NCBI GenBank assembly: GCA_021202635.1
Contig: JAJQCQ010000064.1
Span: 1 to 37,601 of the forward strand
DNA from: Lachnospiraceae bacterium
GTDB taxonomy: Bacteria; Bacillota; Clostridia; Lachnospirales; Lachnospiraceae
Reading direction: 5' to 3'
DNA length: 37,601 nt
Shown here one piece after another: positions 3,659 to 27,590 of the stretch; position 1 is the first letter of the stretch; every line of letters begins with the position of its first letter. The notes below the pieces were generated by a model. It saw only the letters and a program-made list of their open reading frames with translations, was not told the DNA's origin and did not search any database. The position numbers and the translations under genes were made by a program.

Positions 3659-4966
3659 TCATATGATCGCCAGCCCCAGGAAGATCAGGAAGATGACGAT
3701 AATTACCGCCAGCGTGATCAGACCGGCGATCGCGCCCTTTTTGCAGGCATGATAGTTTCGATAATATTGCTTGCTCTTAAATATCTGCCCTGCGATCAGT
3801 CCTATGATCGGCAGGAAAAACGACAAAAACATATAGATCCCGCTGCCGGTATCGTGTACCGGCGCCTTCAGGAACTGGTCATCCGCCGCAGTCAGTGTGC
3901 CGTCCTTCTCCTCCTTCGGGCGTTCTTCGCCTTCTTTCAGAATACGGATCGGCTGCAGGATCTCTCCCTTCTCACGGATCTTGCGGTATTCCTCGATTTC
4001 CTTTTTGTTTCCATAGACGTAGTGGTCATGACCGATGTTGACCAGCTCCGGCTGGTCTGTGCTGTAGTCATGGATCGAGGGATCGTAGGTATACAGCACC
4101 TTATTTTTCTCCAGCTGCGGATCCGGGATCGGAATCGCCGAGATCAGCGAATGGGTGTACGGATGCAGCGGGAAGTCAAACAGCTCTTCTGCTGTCGCAA
4201 TCTCCACAATGTTGCCCTTGTAGATAACGCCGATACGGTCCGAGATGAACCGCACGACGGAAAGATCATGCGCGATAAAGAGGTAGGTGACGTCCTTTTC
4301 TTCCTGGAATTTCTTCATCAGGTTCAGCACCTGCGCACGGATGGAAACGTCAAGCGCGGAGATCGGCTCGTCCGCTACGACCAGCTCCGGCTCCATAACC
4401 ATCGCTCTCGCCAGGCCGATTCTCTGGCGCTGTCCGCCGGAAAATTCGTGCGGATAGCGGGTCAGATGCTCCTTCAAAAGACCTACTTCTTCGATCATGT
4501 TTTCCACCTTTTGAACACGATCCGCCTCATTTTCGTACAGGTGGAAATTGTACAGACCTTCTGATACAATATAGTCGACCGTCGCGCGCTCATTCAGCGA
4601 CGCCGCCGGATCCTGGAATACCATCTGGATATTCCGGATAACCTCCCGGTCGAGAGAATGTGGAATCTTCCCGGAAATGCGGACGCCCTTATACTGAATC
4701 TCACCGGCCGCGCACGGGTTGACGCGGATCACCGCACGCCCGATCGTCGTCTTGCCGGAACCAGACTCACCCACCAGGGAGAACGTCTCGCCCTTATAAA
4801 TATCAAAAGAAGCGTTTTTCACGGCGCGAACCGCATTCTCGCCCTTTCCAAACGTAATATCCACATTTTTAACGGATAATAAAATTTCTCTGCCCTGCTC
4901 ATCAATCGGACCGTGCTCCGGCAGATGGGACGCACTGGATCCTAATTCCTGATTCTGTTTCGCCAC
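3659..4966 (-). CDS. oppF: Oligopeptide ABC transporter ATPase, OppF-type, with a membrane tail
   Basis: This 435-aa ATPase powers peptide uptake together with the OppD-type subunit encoded just upstream. Visible motifs are Walker A (GESGSGKT, residues 66-73), the Q-loop ([11 protein letters not shown]), signature ([15 protein letters not shown]), Walker B (LVVADEP) and the OppF-type C-terminal segment with HPYTHSL. The start is GTG 4966, six bases after GGGAG. The family is usually 300-350 aa. The extra C-terminus is odd: about residues 378-435 contain two strongly hydrophobic segments flanking a basic stretch ([15 protein letters not shown]), so this subunit may be anchored in the membrane. 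It is the last gene of the operon, 61 nt after oppD, and is followed by palindromic repeats that may end transcription. Confidence 0.92.
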
Positions 4967-5027: not shown

Positions 5028-6779
5028 TCACGCTAAGTGATACGCATCAAGCAGCTTCTGGTGGATGTCCCGGATCGCCTCCGGGCCTTCCACTTCCGGA
5101 GCGTCCTCATCCAGCAGCCACGTCTTCGCAAAATGCGTCTCTGTGACCGGGAACATCGGCGGCTCCTCCAGAGTGTCGATCTTCATGCAATACGGGTTTC
5201 TGGGAGCAAACGCGTCGCCTACGATCTGGTTGTAGAGCGAAGGCGGCGTACCTGTGATGGAATACAGCTTCGTATTCCGCTGCGCCAGCTGCGGCAGAGA
5301 GGAAAGAAGCGCCCAGGTGTACGGGTGGCGCGGGTCGTAGAAGACCTCTTCCACCTTGCCAAGCTCGACAATCTGTCCGGCATACAGCACAGCCACGCGG
5401 TCTGCGATGTTCGCCACGACGCCAAGGTCATGCGTAATAAAGACAATCGTAAAGCCCAGTTCCTTCTGCAAATCTTTTAACAGCTGCAAAATCTGTGCCT
5501 GAATCGTCACATCGAGAGCCGTGGTCGGTTCGTCGCAGATCAGGATCTTCGGCTGACAGGAAAGCGCAATCGCGATAACGATTCTCTGACGCATACCGCC
5601 CGAATACTGGAATGGGTAATCGTCAAAACGCGCCTCCGCGTTCGGAATGCCAACCTTGTGCATCAGCACCAGCGCACGTTTTCTGGCTTCGCCTTCCGAG
5701 CACCCCTGATGTTTAATAATAATAGAAGTAATCTGCTTTCCGATCGTAAGAATCGGGTTCAAAGAAGTCATCGGATCCTGGAACACCGTCGCGATCTTCT
5801 TGCCGCGGATGCGGCTCCAGTCCTTCGCGTATTTCACATTCGCCAGGTTCAGCACACAGGTGCCGTGGATCGTATCTGCCGTCTCATCGAGATACCGCAC
5901 ACGGAAAGCCACCGTATCGAAAACCTTATTGCGCTCATTCTCATCATCCAGATCCACGCCGAGCTGCATCGCCTTTTTCAGCGCCTCGACCAGATCCTTC
6001 GCCAGCTTTCTGCGCTGCCTTGCGTCATAGCGGCCGATGGACAGATAGATTTCCTTTGCGAGAATTTCATTGCGCTTCTTCGTCTTCTCCGAGATGGAGC
6101 CCTGAATCAGCTTGTCATACTCTGCCTGCAGGGCTGACTTTTTCTGCTCATATTCCTTCTGAAACGCAGTGTCCTGTGAAGCTTTCTTCTGCTGCTCCTT
6201 TAAGAGCGCCTCATCCTTTTTCTGTACTTCTTTGATCTGTTTATCCAGCGCGGAAATCTGCGCGGCCATTTCATGAATCTTATCTTTTTCCTTATGCGGG
6301 TCAAGCGTCTGCTTCAGGTTATACAGATCCGTCCGCTTCGCGTTAAGGTCAGCCAGCTCTTTTTTCTCCCTGGCCTGCTCCTCCTCGCTGACCGATTCCC
6401 TGCGGTGCTTTTCTGATTCCAGCTCCTGCAGCTTCCGGTATACCGACGCGCCCAGCTCCAGCTTCGCGTGCTGGTCAAGCTGCTTCCTCGACTTTTCAAT
6501 CATCCGCCTCGCCCGGTCATTCAGCGGCGCCGTCGTATCCGCCAGGTCTTCATCATTAAAAATGATCGTGCCCTGGTCAATAAACCCGTTCGCATCATTC
6601 ATGCCGGAAAAAGTCTTCGTAAAAACTGATTTTCCGGAACCGGACTCACCCACGATGGCAATCGACTCGCCCTCATATATATCCAGGGAAATACCGCGGA
6701 TCGCCGTCAGGACACGGCCGCGCACACGGAACTTCACCCACAGATCCTTTACCGATAATAATACCTTTTGTTCTTCCAT
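5028..6779 (-). CDS. oppD: Oligopeptide ABC transporter ATPase, OppD-type, with a large internal insertion
   Basis: The second ATPase of the peptide importer. Walker A is GESGSGKS at 44-51, the Q-loop TVFQDPMTSLNP lies at 331-342, followed by the signature (YSGGMRQRIVIAIAL), Walker B (ILICDEPTTALD), the switch histidine (FITHDLG) and the C-terminal OppD segment with a late cysteine (AFAPRNPYCMKIDTLEE). Family members are about 330 aa; this one is 583 aa because about 230 residues (roughly 88-320) are inserted between Walker A and the Q-loop. The insertion is rich in Lys, Glu, Gln and Ala and looks like a long coiled coil. In typical OppD only a short linker with 'RGKxIAxIFQ' occupies this place, and the equivalent RGKKIATVFQ is still present after the insertion. 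Start ATG 6779 follows GGGAGG; the gene is 12 nt after oppC. Confidence 0.92.
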   Translation of the reverse strand: MEEQKVLLSVKDLWVKFRVRGRVLTAIRGISLDIYEGESIAIVGESGSGKSVFTKTFSGMNDANGFIDQGTIIFNDEDLADTTAPLNDRARRMIEKSRKQLDQHAKLELGASVYRKLQELESEKHRRESVSEEEQAREKKELADLNAKRTDLYNLKQTLDPHKEKDKIHEMAAQISALDKQIKEVQKKDEALLKEQQKKASQDTAFQKEYEQKKSALQAEYDKLIQGSISEKTKKRNEILAKEIYLSIGRYDARQRRKLAKDLVEALKKAMQLGVDLDDENERNKVFDTVAFRVRYLDETADTIHGTCVLNLANVKYAKDWSRIRGKKIATVFQDPMTSLNPILTIGKQITSIIIKHQGCSEGEARKRALVLMHKVGIPNAEARFDDYPFQYSGGMRQRIVIAIALSCQPKILICDEPTTALDVTIQAQILQLLKDLQKELGFTIVFITHDLGVVANIADRVAVLYAGQIVELGKVEEVFYDPRHPYTWALLSSLPQLAQRNTKLYSITGTPPSLYNQIVGDAFAPRNPYCMKIDTLEEPPMFPVTETHFAKTWLLDEDAPEVEGPEAIRDIHQKLLDAYHLA

Positions 6780-6791
6780 AACCGGCCTCCC

Positions 6792-7763
6792 TTACATATG
6801 CGTTCTCGGGTCAGTCGCGTCGCCCAGGTTCTGTCCCACAACATACAGAACGACCGTAATGATCGCCACGACTGCTACCGGAGACCAGAATTCGAACTCC
6901 CATCCCGGCGTCACCATCGCGCTCTCCGCCGCGTAAATCAGGCGGCCCAGCGACATCTCCGAAAGACCCATGCCAATATAGGCGAGGAACACTTCGTAGG
7001 AAATATAGGACGGAATCTCTGTCGCTGTCATCGTCACAATGATGGACGTCATAAACGGCAGAATGTTCTTCATCGCGATGCGAACCGAGCTCGACCCCAG
7101 ACATTTCGAGGCCAGATTATACTCGCGGTCACGGATGATGATCACCTGCGTTCGGATAAAGTAAGCGACAAACAGCCACTCCGTGATCGTCAGAGACAAA
7201 ACCAGAGTCCAGAAATTCGCCGACAAAAGCATGACGAGCACGGACACCAGCAAAATCATCGGCACGTTTCCGATAATATTGTAAATCGGAATCATGATGG
7301 CGTCCATTTTCCTGGAAAAGCCCCAGAGCGCGCCGACAATCGTACCGATCGTCAGGTTGATCGCAGCACAGACGAAGGCCAGCGACACGGAAATGCGCGC
7401 GCCGTACCAGACTGCGTCAAAGGTAGACTGTCCGGAGCTGCCCGAACCCAGGATCCAGTGAATGTTATATCCCAGCTGTTTCATTGCCTGCAGCGGGCCT
7501 AAGTGCTTTGTCGTAGAGTCCAGCAGGTTGCCGAACCGGTCATAGTCCACCAGCGCCGGATACACATACGTGAACAGCAAAATCACGGCCAGCAGGCCAA
7601 GGATAACAAAATTAATCTTTTTTCGGAAAAACACGCGAAATACGGAGTTCCAGTAGGAATATCGCGGAGCGGTGATCTTCTCAGACTCAAGGTCATTATG
7701 CTCAACAGGGGCGAACAGTTCCTCTTTGGTCATACCGTATTTTTCATAATCTACTCTGCTCAT
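6792..7763 (-). CDS. oppC: Oligopeptide ABC transporter permease, OppC-type
   Basis: The 323-aa inner permease subunit has an N-terminal cytoplasmic stretch (about 1-48), a first membrane segment (about 50-72), an extracytoplasmic loop and a bundle of five further hydrophobic segments. The loop that contacts the ATPases is visible as ASKCLGSSSVRIAMKNILP, matching the EAA motif pattern with its conserved Gly and Leu-Pro. The length is near the family norm, which makes this the only unenlarged subunit of the system. It starts at ATG 7763 after AGGGG and lies 6 nt after oppB and 12 nt before oppD, consistent with tight translational coupling. Confidence 0.92.
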   Translation of the reverse strand: MSRVDYEKYGMTKEELFAPVEHNDLESEKITAPRYSYWNSVFRVFFRKKINFVILGLLAVILLFTYVYPALVDYDRFGNLLDSTTKHLGPLQAMKQLGYNIHWILGSGSSGQSTFDAVWYGARISVSLAFVCAAINLTIGTIVGALWGFSRKMDAIMIPIYNIIGNVPMILLVSVLVMLLSANFWTLVLSLTITEWLFVAYFIRTQVIIIRDREYNLASKCLGSSSVRIAMKNILPFMTSIIVTMTATEIPSYISYEVFLAYIGMGLSEMSLGRLIYAAESAMVTPGWEFEFWSPVAVVAIITVVLYVVGQNLGDATDPRTHM

Positions 7764-7769
7764 AAGCCC

Positions 7770-9341
7770 CTACCTGTCTTTCGATGTAAATGAGATTCTC
7801 GGATCCACGACGGACATCAGCACGTCGCCGAGAATGATGGAAACCACCGACAGCAGCGCGTAAAACAGGGTCACGCCCACGATTACGCCATTATCGTATT
7901 TGTTAATCGCATCCGTCAGCAAACCGCCGGCGCCGGGAACAACGTACACGCGCTCCGTAATGATCGCGCCGACCAGCGCGCCCAGGACACTGCCCGGGAT
8001 ACCCTGTACAATCGGGATCACTGCGTTTTTAAAAATATGCCGGCTGAAAATTTCCGTCTCCGTCAAACCGCCCGCGCGTGCGAATTTCACGTAATCCGCG
8101 TTCATCTGGTCAATCATATAACGGCGCAGCCATTTCATCAGGCTCGCGATCGACGGCAACGCAAGTGAAATCACCGGCAGCACAAACATCGTCCACTTCA
8201 GCTTCTCCACATCAAAGGTCGTGGGCAGTCCAATCTTCCCGCCAATGGCCTTGAAAAGGAAAATATACGCCAGGGACGGCACCGCAATGATAAAGATCAC
8301 GTAAACCGTACCGATCTGATCCACAATCGTATCCTTTTTGAGCGCCATCAAAATGCCGAGCGGTACGCCAAGCAGATAGGACAGCGCCACTGCCAAAATG
8401 CCGATCATGAAGGAATAGCCAATCTTAGAAGCACCCTTCTTTACCGTCTGCACACTCGTATAATCATCCGTATAGCGGGTCGCGTAAACCTGGCTCGTTC
8501 CCAGAGAACCTGCCAGATAGGTCGCTGAGTGCAGATCATCGGCACTTTCCTCGGTCAGCCCGCTTGGGTAGGTAATCGTACTTGAGACATACGAACCCTG
8601 ACTCCGTGTCATTGTCGTAAACACATCCACACCGGAGTTTACCGTATATGACGTACCCAGGTTAATCGATACCAGGTTCTGGTGAATAAACGGAAAACTC
8701 GACGTCATATAAAGCAGATACTTATGCGTCGTACCATTTCCCATAATCGCCGGCGATAACTTGTCTCCGCCATAAACCGGGTCATAAAGGGTAAAGGTCA
8801 GTCCCCGCTCTCCAATGTCTTCCTCCACATTGTGGATATTGTCAACGGTGATCATCCCGCTGAAATATTTGATCAGCCTGGTAATCAGCGGAACATCCTT
8901 GTAAGCGTAGAGCTGCTGCTGCCCGCCGGTCGCAACCTTCTTCGCGTTCATCATGACCGCGTCCAGCCGCGTCACCGTGTATCCTCTCGATTCATAATAC
9001 TCCGTAAACTTCTGCACATATTCAGATACCAGCTCCGAATCCGCGTCCGCGGTCCGGCCAAAGCTCACCGCCGAGCTCCGGGTATCCTCATCGATCTCTC
9101 CCTCATCGACGAGCATGGACAGATAATCGGAATAGGTCACATAATCCAGATAACCGTACTCTTCCCACTTAGAGTACTTATAAACGGTCTTCTGGTTGTT
9201 ACTCTGGTGCGTATATGTCGTATCCGCCGCAAAGACCAGATCACGATTCAGGAGAGAATAAACCATGATCATGACACAGGCGACCACGACAACGACCGAC
9301 AACAGACCTGTGATAATTCGTTTGATTAAATATTTTCCCAC
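7770..9341 (-). CDS. oppB: Oligopeptide ABC transporter permease, OppB-type, with an enlarged external region
   Basis: The 523-aa permease begins with a membrane segment at about 8-28, as in OppB. The first external region then extends from about 30 to 310, where family members have only some 70 residues, before the conserved five-segment core (SFMIGILAVALSYLLGVPLGILMALKK onward) and the EAA-type loop (FARAGGLTETEIFSRHIFKNAV). Part of the usual external motif survives as INLGTSY. The protein ends with the typical DPR motif (VDPRISFTSKDR). The enlarged region probably faces the binding protein. The start is GTG 9341 with AGGAG seven bases upstream. The gene follows the binding-protein gene across a 244-nt gap that holds a strong hairpin. 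Confidence 0.92.
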   Translation of the reverse strand: MGKYLIKRIITGLLSVVVVVACVMIMVYSLLNRDLVFAADTTYTHQSNNQKTVYKYSKWEEYGYLDYVTYSDYLSMLVDEGEIDEDTRSSAVSFGRTADADSELVSEYVQKFTEYYESRGYTVTRLDAVMMNAKKVATGGQQQLYAYKDVPLITRLIKYFSGMITVDNIHNVEEDIGERGLTFTLYDPVYGGDKLSPAIMGNGTTHKYLLYMTSSFPFIHQNLVSINLGTSYTVNSGVDVFTTMTRSQGSYVSSTITYPSGLTEESADDLHSATYLAGSLGTSQVYATRYTDDYTSVQTVKKGASKIGYSFMIGILAVALSYLLGVPLGILMALKKDTIVDQIGTVYVIFIIAVPSLAYIFLFKAIGGKIGLPTTFDVEKLKWTMFVLPVISLALPSIASLMKWLRRYMIDQMNADYVKFARAGGLTETEIFSRHIFKNAVIPIVQGIPGSVLGALVGAIITERVYVVPGAGGLLTDAINKYDNGVIVGVTLFYALLSVVSIILGDVLMSVVDPRISFTSKDR

Positions 9342-9585: not shown

Positions 9586-11745
9586 TTAGAAGATACCAAA
9601 GCCCTTGGTCATGTAGCCCGCATAATCCGGAAGGAGTGTATCAAGATAGGTGGACGGATCGCCATAGTCCGGACCCCAGCCTGTCGTATCGTTGATATCG
9701 CTGTTCTGCTCATAGCCATAGGTATTGTAATAGTTTGCGTAATACCAGCCTGAGTAATCGCTGCCGTCAACCATGTTGATGATGATCTGTCCGTCAAGGG
9801 CGCCTTCAATCGACTGCTTGAACGCGTTCGCGCGGTTCGTGTACGCTTCTACCTGGCTCGGATATACCAGATCAAGGTAGATCGGGTTCTCAGCGCTGAT
9901 GTCCACACCTTCTGCCGCCAGCTCTTCCACAGCTGTCGCCATCTCAGCTACTGCATTGTCTACATTGTAGATGCCGTCATAGCCGTCGCCGCTGCCATTG
10001 CCGTCGTCTGCAGTCGCGTCATAAACATTCATCGGAATTCCATCCGCATCCAGCTGCGCCTGCATGATCACACCATAATAGGTGCCTGCCGCAAAGGTCG
10101 TCGCCTCGCCGTTGATATCAATGGTCACATCCTCTTCGAGGGAGACAAAGTTCCACGGCGTGTAGGAGTTGCGCATATTCGTGTACTTCAGCTCATCGCC
10201 GCGTACCTGCGCCATCATGGACGCACGGTCGGTCGCATAGGAAAGCGCACGGCGGAAGTGTACGTTCTTCATCGCCACGTTGGAGCGCTCCAGCTCCTCC
10301 TCGGTCTTCGGTGAAGGAGCAGTCGTGCCATCGTTAAAGTTCACGAGAGCAACACGGTTCAGGTTGTACATATTGAAGAAGGTCGTCGCATCCGTACCGG
10401 AAACGGAAGCGTAATCATCAAAATAACCATCCGACTTCGCCAGCTCCAGAATCGAGGAAGTAAGGCCAACCGCGTCAACCGTGCCGTTGAGGAAGTCATT
10501 GTAAAGCTTCGTCGGGTCACTGCCGTCATCATACTTCCAGGTCAGGGTCTGAATGTTCACCGCATCTGCGTTCCAGTAAGTCGGGTTCGCGGAGAAGACG
10601 ATGGAGTTCTGCTCGGTATGTCCGGTCACAAGATACGGGCCGCAGTAAGCGATGGTGTCTGCACTCTTGCCGTAATTGTAATCCGCTGCGGAGGAATCAT
10701 ACTCCATACCGAACTTGCCGCCCTGAGACTCATAGTACGTACGGCTCATCGGCGCAAATACATTGTAGCCGAGCATCGTCAGGAAATAAGAGCACGGAGC
10801 TTCCAGTGTATAGACAAGTGTATAATCATCCACTGCCTCTACGCCGACCTCAGCAAAATCGGTCACTTCACCGGAGATATACTCGGAAGCGTTCACGATA
10901 ATGCCCTCGATCAGGTATTCAAGCCCCCCCTGCGCGTCCATCATGTGCTGCATACCGGCTACGAAGTCATCCGCAACCACGCCTGCAACCTCTCTGCCCT
11001 GGGAATCCACCCATGACACGCCCTCACGGAGATGGAAGGTATAGGTCAGACCGTCCTCAGAAACCTCATAGCTCTCTGCCAGTGCCGGCTGAAGCTCATT
11101 CTCGATATCATAGAGCATCAGACCGTCATAGGTATTGACAATCGCCTCAGAGTCCGCGGAAAGGGAAGTCGCCAGAGCGTCCCAGGTCACCGGGTCTGTG
11201 TTATATGCGAGATTATACTCATCCTTTACTTCATATCCGTGCTCTTCCAGATATGCACGCGCCTCACTCTCATAAGTGCCTGTGCCTCTGGTCTCATTCC
11301 ACAGAGCCTTCAGTGCATTGTAATCCTCAATCGAGATCATCTCCGTGGTAACCAGCACGGTAAAATACCGATCTGAATCATTGCCCCAGAGGGTCGTCGT
11401 AGCGGAATACGGAACGACTCTGGTCAGACGGTAAGAACCGCCGTTTGAGTTCGTCGGCAGGAACACAGCTGCCTCCATAATCTTCGCCTCTGCAACTGCC
11501 ATCAACGCATAACGCTCGGATACCGTCTCCGCGTCCTTTGATACCATATACGCGTCATAGAATTCGCCGAGCACCTCATTGTAGATCTCGGTAGAAGTCG
11601 TATAATACTCATCAAAGTCAATGTCTTCCGACGCCTGTACTACGCTCTCGGAGAAGCCGCCCGCAAACGTCATGGAAAGTGCCAGGGAAGCCGCCGTCGC
11701 CGCGGAACCCTTCAGGAAATCCCGTCTGGAAATTTTTCCAATCAT
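9586..11745 (-). CDS. Family 5 peptide-binding protein, Tat-exported, apparently circularly permuted
   Basis: This 719-aa solute-binding protein is the first gene of the opp operon. A twin-arginine signal (ISRRDFLKG at 5-13, then a hydrophobic stretch to about 30) predicts Tat export; there is no lipobox cysteine. From about residue 178 it reads like the start of OppA (PVTWDALATSLS, YDGLM, LQPALAESYEVS, DGLTYTFHLREGVSW, VADDFVAGMQ). The chain stops shortly after GWGPDYGDPSTYLDTLLPD, where OppA proteins normally run on for about 80-120 residues. That missing piece appears at residues 55-135 instead (EFYDAYMVSK, SERYALMAVAEAKIMEAAVFLP, YRLTRVVPY), matching the usual OppA C-terminal pattern. Such permutation moves the chain ends but can keep the fold. 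A paralogue of identical length lies at 16807-18966. Start ATG 11745 follows TAGGAGG. Confidence 0.93.
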   Translation of the reverse strand: MIGKISRRDFLKGSAATAASLALSMTFAGGFSESVVQASEDIDFDEYYTTSTEIYNEVLGEFYDAYMVSKDAETVSERYALMAVAEAKIMEAAVFLPTNSNGGSYRLTRVVPYSATTTLWGNDSDRYFTVLVTTEMISIEDYNALKALWNETRGTGTYESEARAYLEEHGYEVKDEYNLAYNTDPVTWDALATSLSADSEAIVNTYDGLMLYDIENELQPALAESYEVSEDGLTYTFHLREGVSWVDSQGREVAGVVADDFVAGMQHMMDAQGGLEYLIEGIIVNASEYISGEVTDFAEVGVEAVDDYTLVYTLEAPCSYFLTMLGYNVFAPMSRTYYESQGGKFGMEYDSSAADYNYGKSADTIAYCGPYLVTGHTEQNSIVFSANPTYWNADAVNIQTLTWKYDDGSDPTKLYNDFLNGTVDAVGLTSSILELAKSDGYFDDYASVSGTDATTFFNMYNLNRVALVNFNDGTTAPSPKTEEELERSNVAMKNVHFRRALSYATDRASMMAQVRGDELKYTNMRNSYTPWNFVSLEEDVTIDINGEATTFAAGTYYGVIMQAQLDADGIPMNVYDATADDGNGSGDGYDGIYNVDNAVAEMATAVEELAAEGVDISAENPIYLDLVYPSQVEAYTNRANAFKQSIEGALDGQIIINMVDGSDYSGWYYANYYNTYGYEQNSDINDTTGWGPDYGDPSTYLDTLLPDYAGYMTKGFGIF

Positions 11746-12276: not shown

Positions 12277-14232
12277 ATGAGTAAAGACATTAGCAGGAGA
12301 GATTTCCTGAAAAGCGTAACCGCCGGTTCCGCCGGTCTGGCAGCGGCAGGAATTCTTGGGACAACCGCATTCGCAGAAGAAGAGACAGAAGCGCAGACCG
12401 AAGCTGCCTCCTCCGAGTCCACGGAGCGTGTGGTTACAGAACTGGATATCCCGGAAGCAGAAGCGCCGGACGTAACAGACTACGAATGTGACGTGCTGGT
12501 CGTAGGCGGTGGATTTGCCGGACTATTTGCAGCCATGTCTGCGAAAGAGGCTGGCAGCAATGTACTGCTGGTAGACAAAGGACGTCCCGGTTACTCCGGA
12601 CTCAGTGCCTGGGCCAGCTCTCACAATTTCTTTGACGAGGGCTATGGAGACAGCAAAGAAGAATTTGAGTACGCAATGATGTATTCCAACGAATTTCTGG
12701 CGAATATCGATTGGGTACAGGTCTGGGAAGAGGAATCCAAATCGGTCTATGAAAAGTGTGTAGAGCTTGGGATCCTGACCCAGTACACCAAGGGCGAAGA
12801 CGCCGGATACTGGGTAGACGGAACCGTTCAGAATGACAAGCTGGTAGACTATCATCTGGATAACATTCAGTACGACCGCCGCCTGGCGTTCACAAAGGCT
12901 CTGAATAATCAGGAAATTGATTACGTGGAACACACAATGATTATGGATATCATTGAAGAAGACGGACGGATCGCGGGCGCCATCGGCATGCACGTTCCGA
13001 GCGGCACGCTGATTACCTTCCGCGCAAAGGCCGTCATTCTCTGCACCGGCTCCGGCAGCTACAAACCGGCAGGCTTCCCGACGGGCGAAGACACCTTTGA
13101 CGGAGAATATATGGGCTATATGCACGGACTTCCGGTCACCGGGCAGGAATTTGAAGACTTCCACATGAGCGCTTCTTACGCGCCGGGCAACGTACTTGCC
13201 TGTAACAGCTGGCAGTATGTAGAGAATGTCTGGCTTTGCGCTCCGGGCGGATCGACCAAGGAAAATGCGGCCGCAAAAGCATCCGGAGCAGCCAAATCGG
13301 TAATTACGCCGGTATTTGACAGTGCTTATGGCATCACACCGGTAGATAAATATGAGCTTGTTACAGGAAACGGCCGCGGCGCTTCTACCTCAGAAGATGA
13401 AAGCGACCCCAGAACCGGCAAATACTCCAGCGCAGTGTTTAAGGGCGACGTTTTCGGCGCAGCTCCCGGTATGTTTACCCATTTTGCGGGCGGCATCTTC
13501 TGCGGCATTGGCGACACAGAGGGAAAAACCAGCATCGAAGGTCTCTGGGTAGCCGGAGACGGCACAAACGGCTGCATGGCTACCGGCGGCACGAAGGGTG
13601 CGCCGTCTGGATGGACGTCAAACTTTGCCGGTGTGCAGGGAAAGATGGCCGGCGCGGCAGCGGCAGCCTACGCCGGCGGAGTATCTCTGGCTGAAATTCC
13701 AGACGAGGAAATCAGCAGCCTGAGCGAAGAAATCCTTGCGCCGTTAAGCGTGGAAAAAGGCTATGACCCGAACTGGGCGCGCGATATTCTGACCTCTATC
13801 ATGGGACCATACTGGATTACGATCGCCAAGAATGAGACGTCCCTGAGCAGCGCTCTGGATCAGATTGTCCAGTTCCGCACAGACATCATTCCCAAGCTGA
13901 GAGCAACCAGCGGCCATGACCTGCGTCTCTGCCATGAGATGAAGCACAAGGCACTCGTCGCCGAGCTGAAGCTCCGCGCATCTCTTGAGCGCAAGGAAAG
14001 CCGCGGCTATCATTTCCGCACAGATTATCCGTACCGCGACGACGACTATCTCTGCTACATCACCCTCCAGAAGGGCGACGACGATTCGGTAGAAATTAAT
14101 AAGGTGGACATCAAAGAAGACTGGAAAGGCGATCAGACAATGTCTTATGAAGACAGGTATGGCGCTTATTTCCGCTTCCCGGGCGAAACGGAGGCAATGG
14201 ATCTGCCGGAGACGGAGGCTTCCTCCTGGTAA
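12277..14232 (+). CDS. Tat-exported FAD flavoprotein reductase (fumarate reductase / AprA-like)
   Basis: The 651-aa protein has a Tat signal (ISRRDFLKS at about residue 5, hydrophobic stretch ending near AFAEE), an acidic linker, and an FAD-binding fold beginning CDVLVVGGGFAGLFAAMSAK (about 69-88). A second FAD motif is SIEGLWVAGDGTNG. The C-terminal part resembles the flavoprotein C-domain of succinate dehydrogenase and APS reductase (LRASLERKESRGYHFRTDYPYRDDD). Members of this superfamily reduce or oxidise small organic acids or sulfur compounds; the substrate here is not evident, and there is no FMN-binding domain of the type flavinylated by ApbE. The neighbouring ferredoxin gene suggests an AprAB-like two-subunit enzyme acting outside the membrane. 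The start is ATG 12277 after an AAAGGAAGG-type site. It is divergent from the opp operon. Confidence 0.88.
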   Translation: MSKDISRRDFLKSVTAGSAGLAAAGILGTTAFAEEETEAQTEAASSESTERVVTELDIPEAEAPDVTDYECDVLVVGGGFAGLFAAMSAKEAGSNVLLVDKGRPGYSGLSAWASSHNFFDEGYGDSKEEFEYAMMYSNEFLANIDWVQVWEEESKSVYEKCVELGILTQYTKGEDAGYWVDGTVQNDKLVDYHLDNIQYDRRLAFTKALNNQEIDYVEHTMIMDIIEEDGRIAGAIGMHVPSGTLITFRAKAVILCTGSGSYKPAGFPTGEDTFDGEYMGYMHGLPVTGQEFEDFHMSASYAPGNVLACNSWQYVENVWLCAPGGSTKENAAAKASGAAKSVITPVFDSAYGITPVDKYELVTGNGRGASTSEDESDPRTGKYSSAVFKGDVFGAAPGMFTHFAGGIFCGIGDTEGKTSIEGLWVAGDGTNGCMATGGTKGAPSGWTSNFAGVQGKMAGAAAAAYAGGVSLAEIPDEEISSLSEEILAPLSVEKGYDPNWARDILTSIMGPYWITIAKNETSLSSALDQIVQFRTDIIPKLRATSGHDLRLCHEMKHKALVAELKLRASLERKESRGYHFRTDYPYRDDDYLCYITLQKGDDDSVEINKVDIKEDWKGDQTMSYEDRYGAYFRFPGETEAMDLPETEASSW

Positions 14233-16806: not shown

Positions 16807-18966
16807 TTAAAACAGCCCGTAGCACTTCGTTGTATATCCTACATAATCCGGAAGCGCGGTATCAAGGAAAGTCGACGGATCACCATAGTCCGGACCCCAG
16901 CCGGTGCCATCGTTGATGTCGCAGTTCATCTCGTAGCCATAGCTCGGATAGTAGGTCGCGTAATACCAGCCGTCATAGTCGCCCGCATCCACAAGGTTCA
17001 GGATCACAGCTCCGCCGAGGATGGATTCCATCGACTGCTTCATGACGTTCGCGCGGTTCACCAGCGCCTCAACCTGTGATACATAAACCAGATCTACATA
17101 GATCGGGTTCTCTGCGCTGACCTCTACGCCAGCCTCCGCGAGCTCCGCAACCGCTGTCTCAAACTCCGCTGCCGCGTTCTCCTCGTTAAACCAGCCGTCA
17201 AAGCCATCGCTGCTGCCTGTGCCGTCATCTGCGTCCGCACTGTATACGGTCATCGGAACACCGTCTGCGTCCACCTGCGCCTGCATCACCGCGCCATAGT
17301 AGGTGCCTGCCGCGAAGGTGGTCGCCTCGCCGTTGATGTCCACGGTCACTTCTTCATCCAGGGTAACGAATTTGCCCGGCGTCAGGGAGTTGCGGACGGA
17401 GACAAGCTTCAGCTCCTCGCCTACGGACTGCGCATTCATGGAGCCTCTGTCTGTTGCGAAGGAAAGCGCTCTCCGGAAGTGAACGTTGCGCATCGCCTGG
17501 TTGCAGCGCTCCACATCCTCCTCGGTCTTCGAGGAAGCGGCGGTCGTGCCGTCGTTGAAGTTCGCGAGCGCGATACGATTCAGGTTATAGTTGTTGTAAT
17601 AGGTCATAGAACCGGTGCCGGAAACTACGGAATACTCATCAAAGATACCGTCATCCACCGCAAGCTGTACGATCGAGTCGCTCAGGCTGACATAGTCAAT
17701 CGTACCGGAAGTGAAATCGGTATAATACTTGGTCGGGTCACTGCCGTCATTGTATTTCCAGGTAACGGTCTGCAGACGGACATTGTCCGCATTCCAGTAG
17801 GTCGGGTTCGCGGAGAAAATAATCGAGTTCTGCTCTGTCAGGCTGGATACCAGATAAGGTCCGCAGTATGCGATCGAATCCGGGCCTTTGCCATAGGTAT
17901 AATCCGCTGCGGACGGATCATAATCCATACCAAACTTGCCGCCCATGGACTCATAATAGGTACGGCTCATCGGCGCAAACACACTGTAGCCCAGCATGGT
18001 CAGGAAATAAGAGCACGGACTCTCCAGCGTAAAGACAAGCGTTGTGTCATCCGTCGCTTCCACACCAACCTCAGAGAAGTCGGTAATCTCACCATAAATA
18101 TACTCGCTGGCGTTCTTAATAATACCTTCAATCAGGTACTCCAGGCCGCCCTGCGCATCCATCATATGCTGCAAACCCGCCACAAAATCATCCGCCACTA
18201 CGGAAGCCACTTCTCTGCCCTGCACGTCTACCCAGGTCGCACCCTCACGAATGTGGAACGTATAGGTCAGTCCATCATCCGACACCTCATAGCTCTCCGC
18301 CAGCGCCGGCTGCAGCTGATTCTCATTATCATATTCCAGAAGGCCGTCATAGGTCTGTACCACCTTCTCACAGTCCACGGTCAGAGAAGAAGAAAGAACA
18401 TCCCAGGTCACCGCGTCTGCGTTATAATTCAGACTGTAGTCATCCTTTGTCTCGTAGCCGTTCTCCTCCAGGTATGCCAGCGCGGAATCCATAAAGGTAC
18501 CGGTGCCGCGCAGCTCATTCCACATCGTCCGCAGCTCTGTATAATCCGCCGCTTTCAATGCTTCCGTCGTCAGCAGATAATTGTGCATCCGGTAAGAATC
18601 GCTGCCCCACATCACGCTGGAGCCCGATCCCGGCACAACCTTGGTAATCCGGTAATAGCCGCCGTCCGTCGTGGTCGGGAGCGTCACCGCTGACTCCATC
18701 AGCTTCGCCTCCGCAATCGCCATCAGCGCGTACCGTTCCGGCACCGTCTCCGCCTCCAGGGCTACCTGATATGAATCATAGAATTCGCCAAGTACCTCAT
18801 AATAAAGCTCCGTCGAAGTCTCCGTGTAAGCGCTAAAATCAAAATCCTCCTCTGCCAGAACCGCCTTCTGCGTATACAGACCGCCAAATGCTGTGGAAAC
18901 CGCCAGAGTCGCGGCCGTCGCCGCTGTCCCCTTCAAAAAGTCTCTTCTTGAAATCGTAACTGCCAT
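16807..18966 (-). CDS. Second Tat-exported, apparently permuted peptide-binding protein
   Basis: A paralogue of the opp operon's binding protein, also exactly 719 aa when started at ATG 18966, which follows AGGAGG; an in-frame ATG at 19002 has no such site. The Tat signal is ISRRDFLKGTAATAA. Residues about 50-135 again carry the segment that normally ends OppA (EVLGEFYDSYQVALEA, PERYALMAIAEAKLMESAV), the canonical OppA N-terminus starts near residue 178, and the protein stops shortly after GWGPDYGDPSTFLDTALPD. No permease or ATPase genes follow; a terminator comes instead. It is therefore an orphan that probably shares the OppBCDF channel encoded 8 kb away, perhaps with a different peptide preference. 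Its leader and promoter match those of the opp operon. Confidence 0.92.
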   Translation of the reverse strand: MAVTISRRDFLKGTAATAATLAVSTAFGGLYTQKAVLAEEDFDFSAYTETSTELYYEVLGEFYDSYQVALEAETVPERYALMAIAEAKLMESAVTLPTTTDGGYYRITKVVPGSGSSVMWGSDSYRMHNYLLTTEALKAADYTELRTMWNELRGTGTFMDSALAYLEENGYETKDDYSLNYNADAVTWDVLSSSLTVDCEKVVQTYDGLLEYDNENQLQPALAESYEVSDDGLTYTFHIREGATWVDVQGREVASVVADDFVAGLQHMMDAQGGLEYLIEGIIKNASEYIYGEITDFSEVGVEATDDTTLVFTLESPCSYFLTMLGYSVFAPMSRTYYESMGGKFGMDYDPSAADYTYGKGPDSIAYCGPYLVSSLTEQNSIIFSANPTYWNADNVRLQTVTWKYNDGSDPTKYYTDFTSGTIDYVSLSDSIVQLAVDDGIFDEYSVVSGTGSMTYYNNYNLNRIALANFNDGTTAASSKTEEDVERCNQAMRNVHFRRALSFATDRGSMNAQSVGEELKLVSVRNSLTPGKFVTLDEEVTVDINGEATTFAAGTYYGAVMQAQVDADGVPMTVYSADADDGTGSSDGFDGWFNEENAAAEFETAVAELAEAGVEVSAENPIYVDLVYVSQVEALVNRANVMKQSMESILGGAVILNLVDAGDYDGWYYATYYPSYGYEMNCDINDGTGWGPDYGDPSTFLDTALPDYVGYTTKCYGLF

Positions 18967-19123
18967 CTTTTCGCCTCCTGAAATAATTGTCGAATGAAAC
19001 ATACTTTCATTATGTTATCGCGTTACTTTGCTAAAGTCAACAAGAAAAAAAGAGAAAGGGCAGTCTGTACGTCCTCGTACCATGCTGCCCTTTCAACATA
19101 AGTCATATTCTTTTCATTCGCAT
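18967..19123 (-). ncRNA. 5' leader of the second binding-protein gene with attenuator
   Basis: The about 157-nt leader is similar to the opp leader in its first 15-20 nt and in the hairpin core GUAC-GAGGAC-GUAC, placed 49 nt after the -10 box (48 nt in the opp leader). Further downstream the two leaders diverge. Confidence 0.5.
19045..19093 (-). terminator. Attenuator hairpin in the second leader
   Basis: AAAGGGCAG (minus strand, 19093-19085) pairs perfectly with CTGCCCTTT (19063-19055), with an inner GTAC/GTAC pair around GAGGAC, then CTC and seven T. It is a textbook intrinsic terminator placed before, not after, the gene. Confidence 0.85.
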
Positions 19124-23856: not shown

Positions 23857-25680
23857 TCATTCTATTATCCGGTGCAGGTAACTCAGTTCACTGTCATCCA
23901 CATCCTCGTCCGCCAGAATCGTATGAATCTCTACGATCAGATCACCGAGGCTCGTAGTCTCCTGGAACAGATTTTTTCCCGTACACCAGACATTCCCCTC
24001 CTGCACCGCCTTAAAGTCCGCCAGCAGCGCACTTTTTCCATACAGCTCGTCAAGGGTATAGATTTCACCGTCGATGGTACTGTTGTAAATGATGTAGTCC
24101 GCGTCAATCGCCTGCGCGTAAAATTCTTCCATCGTCATGTTCACCGTTGAAACCGCACTGTCATCCTCACCCAGGTCGTCAAAAATATAGGTGCCGCCCG
24201 CGAGTTCAATCATTTTTGCCACATAATCGTTGGATTTGCGGACATTCACGCTTCCGGTCGAGGTGACATAGAAAAACGCGACCGTCTTGCCCAGCGATTC
24301 GGAAGCCTCCACTTCCTGCACGCGCGCCACCTGCTCGTTGAAAATCTCTTCTGCCTCTTCTTCCTTTCCCAAAAGCACCGCGTAAAGCTTCATCCACTCC
24401 GTCCGCCCCATCGGGTGAGACTCGTAGCTGGAGCGCTCCACCAGCACCGGAATGCCAAATGCTTCCAGCTTCTCCTGCACCTCCGGATTGTGATAAATCA
24501 TCGTGGATTCGATTGCCAGGCCGCAGTTTTCCGCCAGAATCAGCTCATAGTCCGGCGCACTGTATTTTCCCGCGTAAAGGATGTCGCCCGCCTCCATCGC
24601 TTCCTGTGCCGCCTCAATATACCAGCCGCTCGCGTTCGTGCCGGAAAGCCGGATGGAATCCAACGCGTCCAGGGAACAGAAAAAATCCATCGCGGAGGTC
24701 GCAACCAGATAAATATTCTCAATCGGCTGCTGCAAAACAGTCACCTCTCCATCGAGCCCATCCGGAACATCCGCACCCTCCGGAACCACAAGGAACACAT
24801 CCTCATCCGCAATGACAATCCGCGCATAACCGCCCTCGTAGTAATCCACTGTGAACATTTCCGCATACAGGAGCTCCAGACTGCTCTCCCAGGCAAGACC
24901 GCACCAGTCCTCCCCGGAAGGATAATTCCGTTCCCCGATTTCATTTGTGTCGGTTTCACCTGTATCCGTTTCCTGCTCACTCGTATTTTCCTCTTCTGCC
25001 TCGACCGCAGCGGAATCCTCCGTATCACAACCAGCTGTATCCGCGTCAGCTTCATCGTCCCCGGCATCCGCGTCCCTGCTTTCCGCTTCTAAAACATCTT
25101 CCCCGCTTTCTGCGGCATCCGCATCATTTGTTTTCGTATTTTCTATATCATCTGTATCCTCATCCGAATCCGCCTCACAAATCGTAGCGGAATCAAAGTA
25201 CAGCGTATATTCAATCTCATGCGGCGTACTCATCGCGGTCGTGTCCGCGGTGACTGCCATCTCATAATCAAAGCCGTCAACCGGAATCTCAAAAGCAGAA
25301 TTTCCTTCCGTATTCACCGGCTCATACCGTTCCCCATCGATCAGCATATAATCATAGTAACTGCTGCTGAAAATAATGGTCGCGGTAACCTGCCCATCCG
25401 CAACCGCAATCGTTGCCGGACTCTCGACCGATGCTTTCCCGGAGCCGCCGCTCAGTGTAACGTCAATCCAATAGCTGCCGTCCGCCAGTCCCAGATCGCC
25501 CGCGGTTATGATTGTATCCGTACTCTCATCCGCGTCCTCTTCTCCCGAATCATCGGAGGTCTCAGAGGCTGACACATGCAAAGCATTCACCGGACAGACC
25601 CAATATATCCCTGATGCCATTCCAGCTGTTACCAGCAAAGCAAATAAAATTCCCGTAAAAAAAGCTTTTCCATTCTTCAT
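23857..25680 (-). CDS. Metal/tetrapyrrole-type ABC binding protein with N-terminal NEAT-like domain
   Basis: The about 607-aa protein begins with a signal or membrane anchor (about 7-30). A beta-rich domain at about 45-165 (DGSYWIDVTLSGG, DYMLIDGERYEPV, STPHEIEYTLYFDS) resembles the iron-transport-associated, NEAT-like domains of clostridial haem and metal proteins. An acidic low-complexity linker (about 165-250, Asp/Glu/Thr/Ala) leads to a TroA/BtuF-type binding domain at about 255-600 (LDALDSIRLSGT, ILYAGKYSAPDYELIL, SYESHPMGRTEWMKLYAVLLGKEEEAEEIF). ATG 25680 has GGAGG seven bases upstream. It fits with the permease and ATPase downstream as one importer, interrupted by the toxin-antitoxin genes. 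The ligand could be a corrinoid, haem-like tetrapyrrole or cobalt chelate. Confidence 0.85.
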   Translation of the reverse strand: MKNGKAFFTGILFALLVTAGMASGIYWVCPVNALHVSASETSDDSGEEDADESTDTIITAGDLGLADGSYWIDVTLSGGSGKASVESPATIAVADGQVTATIIFSSSYYDYMLIDGERYEPVNTEGNSAFEIPVDGFDYEMAVTADTTAMSTPHEIEYTLYFDSATICEADSDEDTDDIENTKTNDADAAESGEDVLEAESRDADAGDDEADADTAGCDTEDSAAVEAEEENTSEQETDTGETDTNEIGERNYPSGEDWCGLAWESSLELLYAEMFTVDYYEGGYARIVIADEDVFLVVPEGADVPDGLDGEVTVLQQPIENIYLVATSAMDFFCSLDALDSIRLSGTNASGWYIEAAQEAMEAGDILYAGKYSAPDYELILAENCGLAIESTMIYHNPEVQEKLEAFGIPVLVERSSYESHPMGRTEWMKLYAVLLGKEEEAEEIFNEQVARVQEVEASESLGKTVAFFYVTSTGSVNVRKSNDYVAKMIELAGGTYIFDDLGEDDSAVSTVNMTMEEFYAQAIDADYIIYNSTIDGEIYTLDELYGKSALLADFKAVQEGNVWCTGKNLFQETTSLGDLIVEIHTILADEDVDDSELSYLHRIIE

Positions 25681-25736
25681 AAGCATCCTCCGACATCCTG
25701 CGATTCCCGCTTCGCAACAGCTCCTTGCCCGACCCT

Positions 25737-25976: not shown

Positions 25977-27590
25977 CTACTCTGCCACTATCGGATTGGA
26001 GACGCTGACCTTGTGGTCATACCATACGCCCTTTGTCCCGATCAGCGCTACATCGTATTCCTCATCGAGTGCCGGAACCGGAATATCAAATCCATAGACC
26101 TCCTCGGTCGTGCCATCGCTGTAGGTAACGGTATCAATCGTCGGCTCAAGCAGAACCGCGCCTTCTGTTTCAGCATCCGCAGCCAGCCCGTAATAAAGGT
26201 TCACGATACTCTGAGATACCAGCGTTACGTGCACGGTCATCTCACCATTCTCGACGGTCAGGGTCGCCTTGCCGTCCAGAGCCTCATTTACGTGAAACAT
26301 ACTGCTGTCGGTGTCAAAATCCACCGTATATACGCCGTCCGCCAGTGCCGCGGTCTCGGTCGCATCTTCCGCATCATCCGTACTGTCACTGTCCGAAAGC
26401 CCTAGGGATTCGATCGCTGCCGCTGTGTGCTCAATGTAGAGCTCCTGAACTGCCTCGATTCTTCCCATGCCTTCGATCTGCGTATCTACGCTCTCAAAAT
26501 AACCGGATGCGTTGAACATGCTCAGCCAGGAATCCTCATCCTCACCCGCCATGTCATTGTTTGCGTGATCGCCAGCCACTACCATCAGCGGACGAAGGAT
26601 CACCTTTGTATAGCCAGCCGCGTAAACGGACTCGATCACTGCCTCGCAGGCGGTCTCTTCCGGCTCACCCTCTACCGTGCCGATAAATACGTTTTCATAG
26701 CCAAGCTCTTCCATCTGGGTCTGCATCTGGCTGTAAGAAACCTTTGCGGTATGGGAAGTGCCATGTCCCATCAGCACGATCGCGGTGCCATCCTCTGCCG
26801 CCGCCTCCAGACTGTCATAATCAGAGCTCTCTACTGCTGCCGCTACCACAGCCTCAGCTACAGCTGCCTTATCCTCATTGATGACCGTCGCGTCGTCGCC
26901 AACCTCGCCAAGCAGCGGCTCTGCAACTGTCACAGACTCGAACTGATCCGCGTATTCCTCAACCGCCTCAACCAGCTCATCATACTCTGCGCCGTGCATC
27001 AGATGGGTCGGCTGAATCACCAGATTCTTCACGCCGTTCGCAACCGCGCGCTCCAGCGCCTGCTCTACATTATCAATCGCCTCGCCGTCGCGGGACTGCA
27101 CATGGTTGATGATGATCTGTGCGGTAAATGCTCTCCTTACCGACCAGTCCGGATATGCCTCGGCAATCGCGTCCTCGATCGCCTTGATGTCCTCTACACG
27201 GCTGTCGTTAAAGGATGTACCAAAGCTTACGACCAGAATCTCATTCTCGCCGATATCGTCCTGATTCCGCGCGTCATCCAGGGAAGCGTCGCCGGTATCT
27301 CTGCCGAAATAATCCGGATCTGCATTCTCTCCCTCGACCAGCTCCTTCTGCTCGTCGGTCAGCGCATCCCAGGCTTCTTTTGCCGCCTCACACTGCGCGT
27401 CCGTGTCATCTGTTCTCGTCTGCACATAGATCGCGTCGATCAGCGCCGCTGCCTCATCCGCGGCTGCCTGGTCTTCGTCCGAAACTGCCGCTTCCGTTGT
27501 CTCCTCTGCAAAAACGTTTGCCGCCCCCATCGAAAAAACGGTGGTCATCGCAAGCGCAACTGCAAGAGCCTTCAGTGATTTTCTCTTCAT
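25977..27590 (-). CDS. cbiK: Secreted CbiK-type cobaltochelatase with C-terminal NEAT-like domain
   Basis: The 537-aa protein has a Sec signal peptide (KRKSLKALAVALAMTTVFSMGAANVFAEE), a short helical segment (about 40-90, WDALTDEQKELVEG), a CbiK domain (about 115-395) and a C-terminal beta-rich domain (about 418-530) similar in style to that in the neighbouring binding protein. CbiK, sirohydrochlorin cobaltochelatase, inserts cobalt in anaerobic B12 synthesis. The family motifs are visible: VVSFGTSF (120-127), QPTHLMHG with H196, VLMGHGTSH with H276, and PLMVVAGDHANNDMAG with H342, so the metal site looks intact. Normal CbiK is cytoplasmic and about 260 aa; an exported CbiK is known in Desulfovibrio. 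In this Gram-positive-type cell it would act outside, perhaps handling metal or tetrapyrrole for the importer encoded next. It lies behind a cobalamin riboswitch. Confidence 0.88.
   Translation of the reverse strand: MKRKSLKALAVALAMTTVFSMGAANVFAEETTEAAVSDEDQAAADEAAALIDAIYVQTRTDDTDAQCEAAKEAWDALTDEQKELVEGENADPDYFGRDTGDASLDDARNQDDIGENEILVVSFGTSFNDSRVEDIKAIEDAIAEAYPDWSVRRAFTAQIIINHVQSRDGEAIDNVEQALERAVANGVKNLVIQPTHLMHGAEYDELVEAVEEYADQFESVTVAEPLLGEVGDDATVINEDKAAVAEAVVAAAVESSDYDSLEAAAEDGTAIVLMGHGTSHTAKVSYSQMQTQMEELGYENVFIGTVEGEPEETACEAVIESVYAAGYTKVILRPLMVVAGDHANNDMAGEDEDSWLSMFNASGYFESVDTQIEGMGRIEAVQELYIEHTAAAIESLGLSDSDSTDDAEDATETAALADGVYTVDFDTDSSMFHVNEALDGKATLTVENGEMTVHVTLVSQSIVNLYYGLAADAETEGAVLLEPTIDTVTYSDGTTEEVYGFDIPVPALDEEYDVALIGTKGVWYDHKVSVSNPIVAE

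Follow-up and report, generated by a model that had tools for sequence, protein, structure and literature searches.

Conserved circular permutation of peptide-binding proteins encoded with an Opp importer in a Lachnospiraceae bacterium

Two genes in a 37,601-nucleotide stretch of DNA from a Lachnospiraceae bacterium (assembly GCA_021202635.1, contig JAJQCQ010000064.1, positions 1 to 37,601; hereafter the window) raise the question of why proteins that annotate as ordinary peptide receptors begin with the sequence with which their relatives end. Both genes lie on the minus strand and each encodes a protein of 719 aa. The first (P0001, 9586..11745) is the first gene of an opp operon, and the second (P0002) spans 16807..18966, or 16807..19002 (731 aa) if an extra ATG 12 codons upstream of 18966 is used. 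A preliminary description of the window had reported the two genes and proposed a circular permutation of the family 5 fold. This proposal was borne out by profile searches in both directions, by in silico rotation with a shuffled control and by a structure model, which together indicate that P0001 and P0002 are almost certainly circularly permuted family 5 (cluster C) binding proteins. Routine annotation conceals the permutation, as Pfam describes both as a plain family 5 binding protein (SBP_bac_5, PF00496; E 2.3e-45 and 155.7 bits against a cut-off of 32.4 for P0001, E 7.2e-45 for P0002) with a twin-arginine translocation (Tat) signal.

Residues 176-705 of P0001 matched residues 15-498 of the pneumococcal AmiA chain (phmmer against the PDB, i-Evalue 4.8e-68), and residues 69-155 matched the later AmiA residues 535-624 (1.2e-3). 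The same crossed order was found against AliB, AliC, and AliD, for which the second stretch was weaker (0.022, 0.025, and 0.12, respectively). AmiA and these three were the four best distinct PDB sequences for P0001 and are its nearest solved relatives, in place of the E. coli OppA proposed earlier as the comparator. On the strength of these alignments, chance is excluded as the source of the crossed pattern. The P0001 chain opens with a Tat-type signal region (SRRDFLKG; residues 1-39, 11629..11745, minus strand as all features of both genes; Pfam PF10518, E 2.4e-7; TIGR01409). This is followed by residues ~45-155 (11281..11613), which correspond to the C-terminus of canonical Ami/Ali proteins, and then by a linker that bridges the old C- and N-termini (residues ~156-172, 11230..11280; from the alignment and from the model, which has helices at 100-113 and 119-129). 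The remainder, residues 173-719 (9589..11229), is the canonical N-terminal part and ends in the loop after WGPDYGDP. The linker has a conserved GTGTYE...YLEEHGY in the alignment, and the old C-terminus would correspond to where helix alpha19 begins. In P0002, the tail profile placed the displaced segment at 18514..18867. The displaced segment had thus been recognized, but its extent, given as residues 55-135, had to be widened to ~45-155 plus the ~17-residue linker to ~172.

Chain ends and tails were compared in 45 permuted rows, near-duplicates included, and 15 of 16 canonical rows. All 45 permuted chains stop 20-24 residues past WGPDYGDP (22 in P0001 and P0002), whereas complete canonical relatives have 127-148 residues beyond this position in 15 of 15 cases. 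The early stop had therefore been seen correctly, although it does not fall just after GDPSTFLD. A canonical profile built from 15 C-terminal tails matched the N-terminal part of every one of the 45 permuted proteins (E 9.3e-21 to 7.1e-9), with an additional partial stretch elsewhere in five rows. In the reverse direction, a profile of 32 permuted N-terminal segments matched every one of 28 canonical proteins at its C-terminus (i-Evalue 9.4e-15 to 8.2e-6), with an additional weak stretch in three of them (i-Evalue 0.26-1). When the whole PDB was searched with the N-segment profile at E<=1, only AliB, AmiA, AliD, and AliC were retrieved, in all four cases at their C-terminus (5.5e-9 to 2.7e-7). 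A six-frame scan of the window with the tail profiles gave i-Evalues <1 only in the N-terminal parts of the P0001 and P0002 genes; a hidden second tail downstream was discarded, since beyond the two genes there were only chance matches (i-Evalue 3.4 and 5.8). Finally, rotating the permuted proteins in silico, with signal and tether removed, improved their fit to the canonical profile in 42/42 (mean +44.6 bits, range 22.3 to 63.3), and the continuous alignment then reached profile position 620 of 626 (median) versus 508 unrotated. With shuffled tails the mean was 335.0 versus 335.3 unrotated. An earlier rotation with signal and tether left in the middle scored higher in 27/42, with a mean of +1.4 bits and no clear gain, we think because these stretches remained between the joined parts.

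Of 299 genomes sampled from the same family, 14 (own genome included) had homologues at E<=1e-60, and all 13 others carry the segment N-terminally (L023 is cut before its end). A scan of GTDB contigs yielded 28 loci, all with the N-terminal segment (L041 is cut before its end), from Lachnospiraceae, Oscillospiraceae, and other Clostridia, including Roseburia inulinivorans DSM 16841, Fusicatenibacter, and Blautia; five of these records are ruminant caecum or rectum samples. The two collections overlap, L013 and L048 being seemingly one gene, and near-identical copies (99%) occur in Lachnospiraceae metagenome-assembled genomes. At E<=1e-40, permuted proteins were found in 5 and canonical ones in 6 of 391 genomes of the class sample (own included), and in 2 and 8, respectively, of 398 genomes of the phylum sample. 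Canonical-order relatives also occur within Lachnospiraceae and in the own genome (L003). After rows with identical last 400 residues were removed, 75 of 93 relatives remained: 42 permuted, 30 canonical, and 3 undecided (L090 and the incomplete L023 and L041). Trees of 59 proteins (686 columns, IQ-TREE, midpoint root) left out the undecided rows, the incomplete L065 and L100, and 11 rows >90% identical; rows had been gathered with two queries, so that sampling was not exhaustive. The 32 permuted proteins formed one side of a single branch with support 100/100, which joins L054 and L060/L068 at 100/99, beside Ami/Ali-like proteins. A tree of the tails recovered the same split (99) but not these neighbours.

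Because the permuted proteins form one branch, one origin suffices, and we infer a single event in an Ami/Ali-like ancestor whose OppB was already of the long AmiC type. Permutations usually come about through tandem duplication, which here would probably have been followed by fusion and then trimming; no fused intermediate was found among the sampled relatives. The displaced part could instead have been fused from another binding-protein gene, giving a chimera with permuted order, an origin raised for TpMglB-2 by its authors in the available part of their report (PMC4990184). In keeping with a chimera, identity between permuted and canonical rows is lower for tails (row means 16.7-26.0%) than for cores (25.0-33.2%), and the most similar tails (L064, L067, and L066) belong to other proteins than the most similar cores (L068, L060, and L061). 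However, core and tail identities to the canonical rows co-vary (Spearman 0.54, p 0.004, for rows that are not independent), and the tail tree groups the permuted proteins together, although it resolves little else. This comparison would not tell tandem copies of a single gene from two close paralogues. We consider a chimeric origin rather unlikely and favour permutation within one gene lineage. Two of these relatives, L064 and L067, have the canonical order with an additional N-terminal ~150 residues, which we take to resemble a copper amine oxidase N-terminal-like domain.

The structure model of the permuted protein was confident (predicted local distance difference test, pLDDT, 83.6; predicted template modelling score, pTM, 0.84), and its superposition on AmiA covers 491 of the 547 non-segment residues at 2.0 Å and extends to the last residue. 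It has the bilobed three-domain fold of AmiA and OppA; the canonical chain order, with the tail at the C-terminus, is absent. Such a confident monomer model makes it very improbable that the segment is swapped into the fold of an adjacent molecule, even though canonical AliC (8qlh) is described, in the portion of the source available, as crystallised as a domain-swapped dimer (PMC11192437). The sequence-ordered core alignment stops at AmiA residue 533, after which AmiA has >100 more residues. Folded alone, the displaced segment reached a pTM of 0.49, and the block pLDDT of model residues 51-70 fell from 84-85 in the full model to 57-59. By these predictions, the segment seems not to be a domain in its own right. 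An independent extra domain beside a C-lobe complete without it had been named in the preliminary description as the contrary outcome and was not seen. Although such a domain, as a partial duplicate of the tail, is conceivable, tandem duplication being the usual road to permutation, the C-terminal copy is missing in all 45 chains, the window holds no second tail and the core stops short of the AmiA end, which leaves this reading barely credible. An assembly artefact, frameshift or wrong start codon, for which nothing speaks beyond the draft state of the assemblies, is practically negligible, because the order recurs in many contigs of separate assemblies, including that of the isolate R. inulinivorans DSM 16841, and the mean column identity is 67% across 28 rows of the alignment.

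With the permuted order preferred, the question becomes where the chain was cut. In the model the new termini are in lobe 2, in the loop following the WxxD motif for recognition of the peptide N-terminus, and not near the hinge as had been supposed. This motif is W690...D693 in P0001 (9667..9678) and corresponds to W500/D503 of AliB, a pair in contact with the peptide N-terminus according to the part of the structural study available (PMC11192437). Both residues are invariant in the 28-row alignment. Given the invariant pair and the retention of the operon, the permuted proteins would work as ordinary Venus-flytrap peptide receptors feeding OppBCDF. The main physical consequence would be that the N-terminal membrane tether exits lobe 2 and not lobe 1. 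In the AlphaFold model of the Ami system, as far as the accessible text describes it, AmiC ECD1 wedges between the lobes, ECD2 touches lobe 1 only, and AmiD touches lobe 2 (PMC11192437); lobe 1 is thus the lobe that AmiC ECD2 is modelled to hold. The stretch from lipobox to fold has a median of 46 residues in permuted rows (27 of 32 scored) versus 21.5 in canonical rows (22 of 27 scored), which is in keeping with an exit from lobe 2, as one evolutionary contrast. Tentatively, and with less than even confidence, we propose that one permutation founded a 'cluster Cc' in Clostridia, in which the tether moved to lobe 2 after an AmiC-type extracytoplasmic clamp on lobe 1 had been gained, receptor docking and reloading changed, and tether length and an OppD insert then adapted. 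An advantage in docking is a hypothesis, and neutrality is equally compatible with the data.

A lipobox regular expression gave a match for 27 of the 32 permuted rows, of which at least one is doubtful, and detected no lipobox cysteine in P0001, P0002 or L003. A link between permutation and Tat export was dropped for this reason, the Tat motif being present in only 3 of the 32. In the own genome, which encodes TatC, a twin-arginine signal starts 9 of the 10 matches to P0001 (L001-L010), and L010 matched P0001 through this signal stretch.

The importer genes encoded with P0001 are OppB (7770..9341, 523 aa with a long N-terminal part), the OppC permease (6792..7763), the OppD ATPase (5028..6779), and the OppF ATPase (3659..4966), all on the minus strand. 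Among the 28 related loci, OppB lies directly downstream, within about 400 bases, in 25, and all of OppB, OppC, OppD, and OppF are present in 21, the other four being cut by the contig or stretch end. The exceptions for OppB are L041, which ends within the gene, L047, without a permease in 8 kb, and L034, which was entered via an orphan-type copy and whose operon-type copy is in two frames and cut by the stretch end. In 23 of 24 permuted operons, the open reading frame (ORF) for OppB spans 524-582 codons from stop to stop. The remaining case is the draft of R. inulinivorans DSM 16841 (L032:10201-11762), in which oppB is in two overlapping pieces in different frames, a frameshift or sequencing error. 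Of 11 OppB ORFs measured at canonical loci, 10 have 316-328 codons (L110 being cut by the contig end) and the one next to L054 has 498. This is the length of AmiC (498 residues in the part of the source available, PMC11192437), and for this reason the long permease probably predates the permutation. P0002 has no permease of its own directly downstream. Among 17 matches to the window OppB in the own genome only one is full-length, so that the two receptor copies probably share this single long-OppB permease, much as five lipoproteins share one permease in the pneumococcal Ami system. In OppD, a stretch of ~230 residues, charged and by reading coiled-coil-like, is inserted after Walker A (residue 44) and before the Q-loop (333). 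Judged by ORF length, 20 of the 22 permuted operons that were measured have the insert (L039 and L040 lack it), and it is missing from all 10 OppD genes that neighbour canonical relatives, not counting a distant match at L102. The window OppD matches Mycoplasma OppD (NF043079) over nearly its full length, insert region included (711 bits, cut-off 740). Mycoplasma OppA (NF043077), suspected from this match to be a further permuted group, has its core in the same order as the window proteins but its tail C-terminal (783-884 of 896), and was set aside.

On the one hand, the window proteins resemble pneumococcal AmiA (8a42), AliB (8qlj), AliC (8qlh), and AliD (8qlc) in cluster C fold (31-34% identity in structural alignment), in the W/D pair for the peptide N-terminus and, as far as the consulted portion of that work goes, in a long permease subunit. 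They differ from them in that the C-terminal ~120 residues of the Ami/Ali proteins are N-terminal here, and the chain N-terminus, in lobe 1 there, would be in lobe 2. On the other hand, they share a natural circular permutation with TpMglB-2/Tp0684 of Treponema pallidum, for which 'Cluster Bc' was proposed (PMC4990184). The available part of that report describes a cluster B, glucose-binding fold whose hinge has an extra crossover, last strands equivalent to the MglB start, a permuted part 13% identical to its counterpart, homologues in gut Gram-positives and a possible link to membrane tethering (PMC4990184). Compared with TpMglB-2, the window proteins appear to belong to another fold class, are cut at another place and have a displaced segment whose homology is clear. 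TpMglB-2 was the only natural permuted binding protein of ATP-binding cassette (ABC) transporters found in print (open-access literature and few subscription papers). The suggestion that this may be a known gut clostridial clade holds for its distribution; no published description was found in the open-access literature.

Other genes of the window include a peptidase of family M3 just upstream of P0002 (19186..20961, minus strand; PF01432, E 7.6e-25) and, on the other strand in the gap separating the receptor genes, a fumarate-reductase-like flavoprotein (12277-14232, plus strand; PF00890 and PF02910) with a Tat-like start by reading. In the region 25977-27590 and 23857-25686 (both minus strand), a CbiK chelatase (PF06180, E 5.8e-71) is encoded close to an ABC ATPase and a Peripla_BP_2 protein; its start is signal-like, and it matches NEAT weakly (E 6e-4, below cut-off). 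From these domain matches the locus is possibly for surface uptake of tetrapyrrole metal.

The conserved circular permutation is real and, within the literature searched, new in its class, while the likely function of the proteins is ordinary. Natural permutations of ABC binding proteins have seldom been described, and this is a second, independent case, in the peptide-binding class. The cut in lobe 2 is a naturally tolerated site, useful for permuting binding proteins into biosensors. As the own genome also has a canonical-order paralogue and structures of canonical relatives are solved, these proteins offer a natural experiment on whether chain order and tether position matter in binding-protein-dependent transport.
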